The notes below the pieces were generated by a model. It was not told where the DNA came from and ran no database searches. It saw nothing but the letters and a program-made list of their open reading frames with translations. Below, piece by piece: positions 59,404 to 64,000 of a stretch of DNA of 64,000 bases. The DNA lies in assembly GCA_018873225.1 (NCBI GenBank), contig JAEILZ010000010.1, forward strand, positions 389,220-453,219. The letters are read 5' to 3'. Origin of the DNA: [Phialemoniopsis] sp. UDSM-2020 (lineage: Eukaryota > Ascomycota > Sordariomycetes > Thyridiales > Thyridiaceae). Position 1 is the stretch's first letter. Each line of letters begins with the position of its first letter. The position numbers and the translations under genes are program-made.

Positions 59404-60183
59404 GGCTTGCTGAAATTGCTGATCTTGGCAAAGGGCACCTGAACCTCGGCGTATGCAATGAAGTGTGTCGCATTGTCGGTGTGCTTCCAGGCATGATCGC
59501 CCCGTGGAAGATAAGCACGAAGTGGGGCAAACCTTCGACTGAGAGCTAGGCTGTTTCCGGGTATAGGGTTGACCGCGCCAATGATCATGGCTCCATGGTC
59601 CGGTACGATCAGTCTCACGGGCTGAAGGCTGTAGCGTCCGACAGAGCATCTCAACATGAGAGGCGCTGCTGTGACTGGCACGGTTGTCATCATTCGCCTC
59701 TTTTGCTATTGTCTAGATACAACTAAAATTCCACTACCACTGTCGCATACCATCGCAGCTTGTACATAGACACATGACAACACTTTTTGTGTCGTCCTCG
59801 TCAGTGCGAGTTTTACTGGTCTGCTCGGATCGCATGAGGCTAATGCTAGCTCAACACTCTCGAATTTGGTCAGCGTTTGGTACTAAGGATCGAGACGCGA
59901 GCTCCTCGGACTTTTCCTCGTCGTTCCCACCACAAGCACTAGAAAGATCTCGTCAGCCCTACTGGCAACCATGAGATTACCCGACCCCATTGGGCCATCA
60001 ATGCAGCAACTTTCCCGGAAACTTGATGTGACGGGACAAGGTTCGGTCAGGGTGACCCAAGGATGTCACTTCCTCCTGTCACTTCCTCCTGGAGCAGGCG
60101 GTACACGGGATCCGACAAGTACAAAGTAGTGGGCCTCGGCACTCATCCTCCATCTCAGCCGTACGCATTATCATCGACAAATC
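59404..60183. promoter_or_regulatory. Divergent promoter of metallo-hydrolase and P450
   Basis: 780 bp between two head-to-head genes. No unambiguous TATA box seen. A short direct repeat of TGTCACTTCCTCCTG occurs at 60064-60078 and again from 60076, just upstream of the P450 start. Confidence 0.4.
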
Positions 60184-61914
60184 ATGGCATTGTCAGAGCA
60201 TCTCCCCTCGTTTCTCACATCACGCATTGGAGCAGGTCTGTGTGTCATAGCATTCTGCTATGTATTCAGCGCTGTTCTGGCATGGCACCGCCTGCGCAGG
60301 TTCCCTGGGCCTGTGTTGGCCAGCTTCTCCTACTTGTGGTTATTCCGCACTGCACTGTCTGGCAGAGCTTACAAAATTCATGTCTCCACGAGAGAAAAAT
60401 ATGGCGCAGGCTTGATTCGTATCGGACCAAACACACTGATTACCGACAACCCAGACGTGTTGCAGCAGATAAATGCTGTTCGCTCAGACTACATCAAGTC
60501 CCGGTGGTATTCGGTCATGAGGCTGGATCCGTACATGCACAACATGATCAGCACGACAGATAGAACACTACACGACGACATTCGAGAACGAACAGCAGCC
60601 GGGTACACTGGTAGAGAAGTACCATCCATGGAGAACGACGTGGACAGCCAGATTGAAAGTCTCAAGAGCCTTATCCGCAAGAAGTACATCTCGAAGTCTG
60701 CAGAAACCAGACCTATGGACTGGGGGCTCCTTGCCCAGTATTTCACTCTTGACTCTCTCACCAAAATCGCATATGGCGAAGAATTCGGCTGCTTGGCTGC
60801 AGACGCAGATATCAACGATTACATCAAGACTGTGGAAGACGCAGGCTTCGTTTTCGCCGTGTGCTCTGACGTTCCCTGGATGGGACAATTCTTCCTATCA
60901 GACTTCTTTCTGAAACTCATCGGACCCAAGAGCTCCGATAAGAAGGGAATGGGAGTCATGATGGCGTAAGTTGCTCTGGTCGTGACCAAGTCGCCTTGCC
61001 TGACCATGTCACAGGCTCGCCGAGCGAATAGTAAGCAAGAGACTGGAACCAGGCGCTGAAGAGGGAAAAGACATGCTGGTAATGAGTGCAGTCCTCAGTT
61101 TGCGATGCCATCAACCTGTAATCGCTGATTGTTCTTAGGCTTCGTTTCTCCGGCACGGTTTGACCCCCAAACAATGCGAGTCTGAGATCCTAGCCCATCT
61201 TGTCGCAGGATCAGATACCACGGCCAATTACATTCGGGTAGCACTCCTTCTTGTTGCGTCGACACCACGTGTCTACCATCGTCTGCAGCATGAAATCGAC
61301 GAAGGTATTGCTAAAGGCAGGATTTCAAGCCCAATCACTCTTGCTGAGGCCCGTACTCTGCCTTATTTGCAGGTTAGTCGATTAAGAATGTCTACTGTCG
61401 GAAGACAAGAGCGCTCATCAAGATAGGCTGTCATCTGGGAGGTCATGAGGTTTCACCCACCCGTTTTCATGCTATTCTCCAAAGTCGTCCCTCCACAGGG
61501 AGACAACCTGGCGGGGCAATATGTCCCTGGTGGCACGGAGATCGGTCTAGATTCTTGGTCATTTGGGCGGCGTAAAGATCTATACGGCGATGACGTTTCG
61601 GTATTTCGACCAGAAAGATTCATCGAGGCAAGTCCCGAGAGGCGCTTGAATATGGAGAAGAACACAGAGCTGCTCTTTGGAACAGGTCGATACACCTGCG
61701 CGGGCAAGAATGTCGCATTTCTAGAACTGTGGAAGATCTTTGTTGAGGTATGTACTGTTGAATGCACAACTTCGAATCTCTCACTGACAGTAAGCAGTTG
61801 CTTCGAGACTTCGACTTCCAATTGCTGAACCCTGAGAAGCCGATGACCACATCTCATCGATCCATGTTTGTAATCCGGGACATATTCATGCGAGTCACCG
61901 AAAGAGATCAATGA
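60184..61914 (+). CDS. Cytochrome P450 monooxygenase
   Basis: Five exons (60184-60965, 61015-61078, 61139-61372, 61427-61747, 61798-61914; introns 49-60 bp) encode 505 residues. An N-terminal membrane anchor (IGAGLCVIAFCYVFSAVLA) is followed by the hinge RRFPGPVLA. The I-helix oxygen-activation motif is AGSDTTA (305-311). ExxR is EVMR (365-368). The PERF motif is FRPERF and the haem loop is FGTGRYTCAG with the axial Cys451. All key residues are intact, so the enzyme should be active at the ER membrane. The general type is that of pisatin-demethylase-like or secondary-metabolism P450s. It is the immediate, same-strand neighbour of the truncated ABA3-type synthase. A role in oxidising its product is therefore plausible but inferred. 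Confidence 0.93.
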
Positions 61915-62695
61915 GGCACATCATAGCAGGGCAAATCACCGTCAGGTTGTGACACCTGAAGCATTGAAACGATCAGCATGAGTCGGTCGTCTAGATTATT
62001 AGAGATCACTCTTTCCAGTGCTCGACAATGTCAATCAAGCGCAGAGTTAAATATGCCAATAAGATCGATGAAAGCTACTGATTTGCGGTCGACATACGAA
62101 TGATCGTCCAATGTTCATCGTCATACCATGGATAACATGAACTTAGATGCTCAAGACATTGTACTTACAAGTAAATTCCCGGATTACAGACGTGCGCGCA
62201 TGAAGTAAGCGCTCCTTCATAGAGCCAGGTGTGATTGTGTAATGCACTCGGACTCATGCTCCGGAACCATAGAGCCCCCTTTCAGGCTTGGCTTATTAAA
62301 GTTCGAACCATGGATCTCAGATTCTTCGTCAGATCTGACGAACACTATTGCTGACGCCCCACCGCCTTAGCTTTGCGCCTTGACTGTCAGATTGCATGTG
62401 GGTTGGGCCATTCACGTCGCGATACTAGGCAAGCTCCGGAGTCTCTCCTCGCATTCGCTCGGACCCAGTCCTAAGGTGTAAAGGTCCAGAGCGGGATGTT
62501 CCTCAGTGAGATGGACGCCAGTCCTATAAAAGATTGCTCACTTGTGCATGCAGCAATGTCGCTTTAGGTGTGGGGTTTGTATCTACACAGCTTGCTTATG
62601 AGACTGGCAAGCCGAACCATCGCGATCGATAGCCAGACCAGCTGTGTTCGCTTCACGCCAACAACTACAAGTACAGCATTCGAAGTCCGGCAACA
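61915..62695. other. Intergenic between P450 and terminal terpene synthase
   Basis: 781 bp with no gene. It holds the P450 terminator and the terpene-synthase promoter, which includes a clear TATA box annotated separately. Confidence 0.45.
62525..62532 (+). promoter_or_regulatory. TATA box upstream of the ABA3-type gene
   Basis: TATAAAAG lies 164-171 bp upstream of the ATG at 62696. Its presence argues that the truncated gene keeps an intact promoter. Confidence 0.6.
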
Positions 62696-64000
62696 ATGAA
62701 ACTACGCAGCCCATCACCTCATGCCCTCTCGAGTGCAGGACGTCCATCGAAGCCGCAAGCCATTGCCGTTTCTAGTGACAAGTGGTTTTACCCTCCAGAA
62801 ATAGCCAACGACCTGCAAGGCGTTGATCTGCCCACAAGCGCAGTTCAGGAGATACTGGCTTGTGCTTGGGAGTACACTCGCTGCGTCATTCCACAATTTA
62901 CGAATTGGGATCGCTATATTGCATTCGCCCGCATCATTGTCATTGGCATCATTACTGAGTTCCGAGGCGAGCTTGTCGATATCACTCGGGGAGACCGCGA
63001 TGTGCTCGGGTGCTATGACTTGGACGAACTGCTCAATACAGTGTACGGAGGCACTCCAGCTCACGAAGACATGTGTCGGGAGTACCGTACGTTTCTGTTG
63101 ATAACAGCCGACAAATGCAGCGACAGATGCGAATCGGAACTGTTTACACGCTACGTCAACGCACTGGCGAGCTCTCCGCAAACATGGTTCCGCATGCGCG
63201 ATTGTGATGCACTCGCACGCTTCACCATTGCGGCCGCCATGGCATGCAACGATGCGCTCAACGAAGACACCTGGTTTACAGAGGACGAGCTTCAAATCCT
63301 GGGCGAGCTCGGCTGCGCTCAATATGACGCCGTCGCTTTCCACAAGCACCGCGCCGAGGGTGAGACCAACAGTACATTTGCGTATGCTGGGGAGGAGGCG
63401 CGCACCGATATGTATAGGCAAACAAGGGAAGTCTTGTGGGCTCTGGATGTGGAGTGGACGCAAGCATCACCGGCCAGAAGGAGTGCAATCAACTTCCTGC
63501 GAGCGTTTGGCGGACCCATCCATTTGATGATGAGGAGATATCGATTTGTGGAGGACGGGCTTATGGTTGGCAAGCCAGAGACGGACAAGGTGGTGCAACA
63601 AACGAGGCAGAACTACAAACTCTGGAACCGCGTGGACGCTGGGCCAGGACTTGATGTCAGTGGCCACGAAGCACGGTTCACACAAGTCATTGAGGGCAGT
63701 GACAGACTGATGTTCCATGGACTGGCAAGCCTACTGCTGGACAGCAACAAAGATCACTGTGATGATTGTAGGTACAGGGTTTCATACGGCGCTGAGTCTC
63801 CTGGGCGATTTGGAGGGGTGGAACTCTGTGCAAGATGCCAAATCAATTGGCAGATGGAGCTTCATACCTTTCCGATGCGGGCTGCTAAGGTGTTTAGGGT
63901 TAGGGTTAGGGTTAGGGTTAGGGTTAGGGTTAGGGTTAGGGTTAGGGTTAGGGTTAGGGTTAGGGTTAGGGTTAGGGTTAGGGTTAGGGTTAGGGTTAGG
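62696..64000 (+). CDS. aba3: ABA3-type sesquiterpene synthase, 3' end replaced by telomere (no stop codon)
   Basis: One continuous frame from the ATG at 62696: 400 codons, then straight into TTAGGG repeats read as Arg-Val to the end of the window, with no stop. Family blocks throughout match the fungal abscisic-acid synthase ABA3: FYPPEIANDLQ (31-41), ACAWEYTRCVIP (55-66), EFRGELVD (88-95), WFRMRDCDALARFTIAAA (164-181), HRAEGETNSTFAY (218-230), GGPIHLMMRRYRFVE (272-286), GKPETDKVV (292-300) and FGGVELCARC (372-381). Two Cys pairs (355/358 and 378/381) suggest a metal-binding C-terminal element. ABA3 cyclises farnesyl diphosphate to alpha-ionylideneethane and lacks classical terpene-synthase DDxxD/NSE motifs; none is seen here either. 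From memory the family continues only about ten residues beyond the KVF at 398-400, so the catalytic body is nearly complete. The gene appears intronless. Confidence 0.88.
   Translation, partial: MKLRSPSPHALSSAGRPSKPQAIAVSSDKWFYPPEIANDLQGVDLPTSAVQEILACAWEYTRCVIPQFTNWDRYIAFARIIVIGIITEFRGELVDITRGDRDVLGCYDLDELLNTVYGGTPAHEDMCREYRTFLLITADKCSDRCESELFTRYVNALASSPQTWFRMRDCDALARFTIAAAMACNDALNEDTWFTEDELQILGELGCAQYDAVAFHKHRAEGETNSTFAYAGEEARTDMYRQTREVLWALDVEWTQASPARRSAINFLRAFGGPIHLMMRRYRFVEDGLMVGKPETDKVVQQTRQNYKLWNRVDAGPGLDVSGHEARFTQVIEGSDRLMFHGLASLLLDSNKDHCDDCRYRVSYGAESPGRFGGVELCARCQINWQMELHTFPMRAAKVFRVRVRVRVRVRVRVRVRVRVRVRVRVRVRVRVRVR
63894..64000 (+). repeat. Telomere, (TTAGGG)n
   Basis: 107 bp of perfect TTAGGG, about 17.8 units, running to the end of the window. 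The G-rich strand reads towards the end, as expected at a right chromosome terminus. The array abuts coding sequence directly, with no subtelomeric repeat between. Confidence 0.98.

Follow-up and report, generated by a model that had tools for sequence, protein, structure and literature searches.

An ABA3-type sesquiterpene synthase gene that reads in frame into the telomere repeats at the end of an assembled fungal contig

A synthase gene at the contig end

The window analysed here is a stretch of 64,000 nucleotides from [Phialemoniopsis] sp. UDSM-2020 (contig JAEILZ010000010.1, here C2; G000:C2:389220-453219). Its last base is the last base of C2 (453,219 bp), so that the telomere array closing the window also closes the contig as assembled. 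Directly beside this array lies a gene encoding a sesquiterpene synthase of the ABA3 type (alpha-ionylideneethane synthase family), and translation of the window shows that the open frame of this gene, 62696-63999, has no stop codon across its whole span. The gene contributes 399 codons before codon 400 (TTT, 63893-63895), the last two T of which already belong to the array, and from codon 401 onward the frame reads AGG GTT AGG GTT, i.e. poly Arg-Val. The array itself is 107 bp long and consists of 17.8 copies of TTAGGG with 100% matches. An earlier sequence-only reading, which had a frame from 62696 enter the repeat in the AGG-GTT phase, is thus confirmed, with codon 400 straddling the junction.

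Two of the three phases of the array are open, TTA-GGG (Leu-Gly) and AGG-GTT, and the third, TAG-GGT, stops. The proposal that the repeat supplies no stop in the AGG-GTT phase is true, and it holds equally for the Leu-Gly phase. On the contig as assembled, a message in the synthase frame would run off the template without meeting a stop. The synthase is encoded on the plus strand with the array on its 3' side, which is the orientation in which telomeric repeat-containing RNA (TERRA) is transcribed. The two further suggestions of the same reading, a nonstop frame with the telomere at the 3' end of the gene and a transcript that would carry UUAGGG repeats if it reached the end, are likewise supported by the sequence. 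Features of the locus are collected in Table 1.

Table 1. Features at the telomeric end of the window
Feature	Position	Strand	Basis and remarks
ABA3-type (alpha-ionylideneethane synthase family) sesquiterpene synthase gene	62696-63893	+	One open frame: 399 full codons and one base of the next; lacks the native C-terminal tail and stop
Terminal telomere array (TTAGGG)17.8	63894-64000	+	AGG-GTT phase = (Arg-Val)n; end of contig C2
Inferred TT seed common to Phe-400 codon and first repeat; probable telomerase extension site	63894-63895	.	Sequence and relatives
ABA1-like cytochrome P450 gene, likely pathway partner	Exons 60184-60965, 61015-61078, 61139-61372, 61427-61747, 61798-61914	+	Five exons inferred by eye
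Antisense frame of 249 aa, interpreted as a shadow of the synthase gene and not taken for a gene itself	62714-63463	-	Synonymous shuffles, Pfam

Identity and completeness of the synthase

The identification of the product as a terpene synthase was borne out by homology and by a PDB match, which specify the ABA3 type. The search retrieved 363 database proteins at E<=0.001, as well as the PDB ABA3 enzyme 8zac at E 3.9e-153, so that the coding character of the frame is not due to chance. The closest database protein among the matches listed is 69% identical, and BcABA3 shows 60% identity over 86% of the query, the homology extending across the whole domain. The ABA3 fold is present in the predicted model of the synthase; a Pfam search of the protein gave no match. 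Judging from its family, the enzyme might convert farnesyl diphosphate to alpha-ionylideneethane. In the predicted model it has the same fold as BcABA3 and RuABA3 (PDB 8zac, 8zad), with 58-59% identity over the aligned domain, but differs from both in that its native C-terminal tail and stop have been replaced by telomere repeats. A literature search for papers that name the structures of RuABA3 or SkABA3 found none.

Counts among relatives refer to the best 120 of the 363 proteins. The column of codon 400 holds Phe in 110 of the 120 and is followed by Pro in 107; beyond it the relatives carry between 3 and 93 residues (median 13), and at most 20 in 93 of the 120. The last helix of the predicted model spans residues 392-400, after which confidence drops along the Arg-Val tail (predicted local distance difference test, pLDDT, by block: 78, 62, 53, 40), and the ordered parts of the five ABA3 crystal structures listed align up to model residues 401-405. 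Since the tails of relatives are short and both the last helix and the structures end here, the break seems to have taken little beyond a loose tail and the stop codon, leaving an enzyme domain that is complete as far as alignment and model indicate. At the 79 columns conserved in at least 95% of relatives the synthase departs only once (Tyr for Phe at 117), which equals the median of the 121 rows, and no decay following truncation is seen at these columns. This absence of decay points either to a recent truncation or to continuing constraint on the gene, and the data fit both.

Chromosome ends of the same genome

The ten nuclear contigs have 20 ends, one of which reads N, leaving 19 that are readable; contig C3 (28.9 kb), presumed to be mitochondrial, stands outside this comparison. 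A terminal TTAGGG array of 95-113 bp is found on 13 of the 19, and none occurs in the examined stretch of the remaining 6. When the arrays were removed and 4,000 bases per end compared with the low-complexity filter off, 11 of the 13 telomeric ends had subtelomeric sequence in common with at least one other end. The exceptions are the synthase end of C2 (C2R) and the left end of C4 (C4L), and these are the two ends at which a sense open frame of at least 60 codons meets the array. C2R has the synthase frame and, overlapping it, a second and shorter frame of this kind. Within the present assembly, the array at the synthase end sits directly on single-copy interior sequence, with no subtelomere, as in a de novo telomere.

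The opposite end of C2 (C2:1-9900) has no telomere and a G+C content of 6% over 9,900 bases; on this account C2 probably represents a piece of an arm, with the break inside a block very rich in AT. The perfect array at the left end of C9 is bordered immediately on its inner side by degenerate TTAGGG-like motifs, which suggest an older, eroded end.

A second gene, apparently cut

At C4L an open frame resembling genes for flavin adenine dinucleotide (FAD)-linked oxidoreductases is apparently cut at ...VIRNTG beside the array, and the next array codon is TAG, an immediate stop. Its similarity to FAD_binding_4 covers profile positions 4-33 of 139 only (E 0.00095, 19.3 bits). A seed up to GGT would fit this junction, provided that the native codon encoded Gly as it does in relatives. 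One genome holds two cut genes, one nonstop (C2R) and one stopped at once by TAG (C4L), and, to judge from their sequences, which outcome follows the de novo addition of a telomere seems to be a lottery of phase. As the second cut gene shows the stop phase, the nonstop state of the synthase is most simply explained by chance, with no selection needed.

Origin of the junction

We think it highly probable that a terminal break near the 3' end of the synthase gene was healed by telomerase acting on a short seed. The chromosome arm would have lost its terminal piece, and telomerase would have extended the TT of the Phe codon that precedes the usual Pro; the TT at 63894-63895 is common to codon 400 and the repeat, and the native bases that followed are deduced from the Phe-Pro of relatives. 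The lost tail would have comprised about a dozen residues, and the event would be recent unless the gene is still constrained. The gene would now lie within telomere-induced repressive chromatin. If an mRNA is made at all, it would resemble TERRA and lack a stop codon, and it would yield at most a little enzyme, extended by a (Val-Arg)n tail. A selected role for the fusion is unnecessary. The healing process itself is known and ordinary; what is uncommon is its outcome here, a gene whose reading frame continues into the telomere. According to sections of PMC7367193, among 24 de novo telomeres of the ribosomal DNA end in Magnaporthe 19 grew from seeds of 1-4 nt, and sections of PMC8381367 propose terminal truncation with de novo telomere formation as the source of AVR-Pita loss.

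Several points weigh against this account. The loss of the tail is deduced from relatives of at most 69% identity and not from the ancestral 3' end of this species, and silencing and decay of the message are what we infer. Because the comparison of ends used no low-complexity filter, AT-rich sequence may make the sharing look larger than it is, and the sharing serves as a guide rather than proof; one of the 11 sharing ends, C9L, is counted on a single 99-bp match. At C4L the Pfam match of 19.3 bits lies below the curated cut-off of 26.4, no stretch passes alone, and the fragment upstream has 0 Pfam matches. Finally, the junction is known from the assembled sequence alone, and the 6 readable nuclear ends without a telomere show that the assembly is incomplete. 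These last two facts also favour an assembly artefact, in which a telomere was attached, through a chimeric read or an erroneous contig end, to a gene that continues normally, as ends are evidently imperfectly assembled. Against such a mis-join, the array is perfect, stands at the extreme end and has a length within the range of the other 12; moreover, a plausible telomerase seed lies at the junction and a second end of the genome, C4L, shows the same pattern. We regard an artefact as quite unlikely.

Telomere capture, by which an interior segment is copied onto an uncapped end through break-induced replication, has been reported for some Pyricularia ends (excerpts of PMC8381367) and would be expected to leave an intact copy elsewhere. 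However, the DNA of 59900-63893 and the synthase protein were each found once in the genome, although the assembly is not complete and one of its contig ends reads N, and neither protein nor DNA search of the present assembly revealed a second copy of the gene or segment. The single copy therefore argues against capture, which seems very improbable. A working, retained fusion, with the telomere as the 3' end of the gene, a coding TERRA transcript and a Val-Arg-tailed synthase, would agree with the undecayed conserved columns, with a fold that is complete before the tail in the predicted model, with a partner P450 that reads through intact with its inferred introns, and with a gene orientation that is that of TERRA transcription. 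Yet a recent break accounts for the same facts, the second cut gene is in the TAG phase as the lottery predicts, and telomere-proximal silencing (PMC5752202) and Val-Arg destabilisation (PMC10557687), as described in portions of these sources, suggest low output. A fusion of this kind is accordingly given little credence, and we are slightly more doubtful still of a live gene whose Val-Arg tail tracks telomere length and so couples enzyme dosage or stability to the telomere.

Expected consequences

Silencing, destabilisation by Val-Arg and no-stop decay, which a nonstop message would also meet, make low or no enzyme the most likely outcome by analogy with other systems, and a tailed active enzyme a possible one. 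In Neurospora, a 102-bp (TTAGGG)17 array, to be compared with 107 bp here, suffices to induce a domain of about 225 kb marked by di- and trimethylation of histone H3 lysine 27 (H3K27me2/3), and new subtelomeres gaining this mark have reduced expression (portions of PMC5752202). In yeast, Val-Arg repeats destabilise mRNA independently of Hel2, according to part of a preprint that also cites Val-Arg translation from mammalian TERRA (PMC10557687). None of the 5 matches at E<=1 to query residues 395-434 was a protein ending in a pure (RV)n tail, their Arg-Val runs being imperfect, and such a search is weak for low-complexity tails.

Comparison with known systems

Al-Turki and Griffith reportedly found in 2023 that mammalian TERRA, a UUAGGG-repeat RNA, is translated into Val-Arg and Gly-Leu products. 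A transcript running toward the end would contain UUAGGG repeats here too, and Val-Arg is the same dipeptide; the difference is that translation would start at the normal ATG of an enzyme gene, in a case known from DNA alone. De novo telomeres of Pyricularia/Magnaporthe oryzae, including truncations that remove AVR-Pita, are alike in terminal loss, a short seed and interior sequence beside the array, but as far as the excerpted accounts go (PMC7367193, PMC8381367) they differ from the present case, in which the catalytic domain is left complete and the repeat is in an open phase. AVR-Pita of strain 4224-7-8 likewise lies directly upstream of the telomere, but it has kept its own stop codon, and the stretch after the stop is conserved among isolates (parts of PMC3145791), whereas here the stop is gone. 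UTASa of Ustilago maydis, a telomere-linked helicase, also has gene sequence beside telomere repeats, and in the sections of PMC10532341 consulted its authors consider transcripts without poly(A) conceivable, not demonstrated. It consists of several predicted helicase copies, in contrast to the single-copy metabolic gene truncated by a telomere here. In a search of titles and the openings of abstracts, together with parts of PMC5576322 and PMC3145791, no published case came to light of an enzyme gene whose frame continues into TTAGGG, although one may exist.

A stop-phase gene and a gene in the open Val-Arg phase within one genome form a natural pair for following the fate of messages that end in telomere RNA, be it nonstop decay, Val-Arg destabilisation, telomere silencing or tolerated read-through. 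The locus thus provides an unusual natural setting in which to study telomere RNA and the quality control of faulty messages, and an example of a pair of biosynthetic genes losing sequence at a chromosome end.

Antisense frame and upstream neighbourhood

The open frame of 249 aa that had been noted opposite the synthase exists. Synonymous-codon shuffling of the synthase gene gave an antisense frame at least as long in 57 of 1000 shuffles, a borderline 5.7%. The antisense frame has 0 Pfam matches, which says little since the sense protein has none either, and homologues were not searched. On these grounds it is judged a shadow, though not disproved as a gene. The synthase's own protein is not among the database matches; as that of the neighbouring P450 is equally absent (best match 62%), this is uninformative on the suggestion that gene callers overlook the synthase.

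The P450 gene reads through its inferred exons to 505 residues and a stop. Its closest relative among the matches listed, at 62%, is from Cephalotrichum gorgonifer, and its best relatives belong to the Microascales and Sordariales. The P450 and ABA3 matches list the same length for the longest contig in Cephalotrichum gorgonifer (1,052,793), Apodospora peruviana (3,914,875) and Naviculisporaceae sp. PSN 640 (227,403), which suggests that the pair is linked in these three fungi too, the contigs themselves not having been inspected. Just upstream of the P450 gene, at 60064-60091, is a perfect tandem repeat with a 13-bp unit in 2.2 copies. Farther inward lie a metallo-beta-lactamase-fold gene, a sugar-transporter-like gene and a 3-hydroxyisobutyrate-dehydrogenase-like gene.
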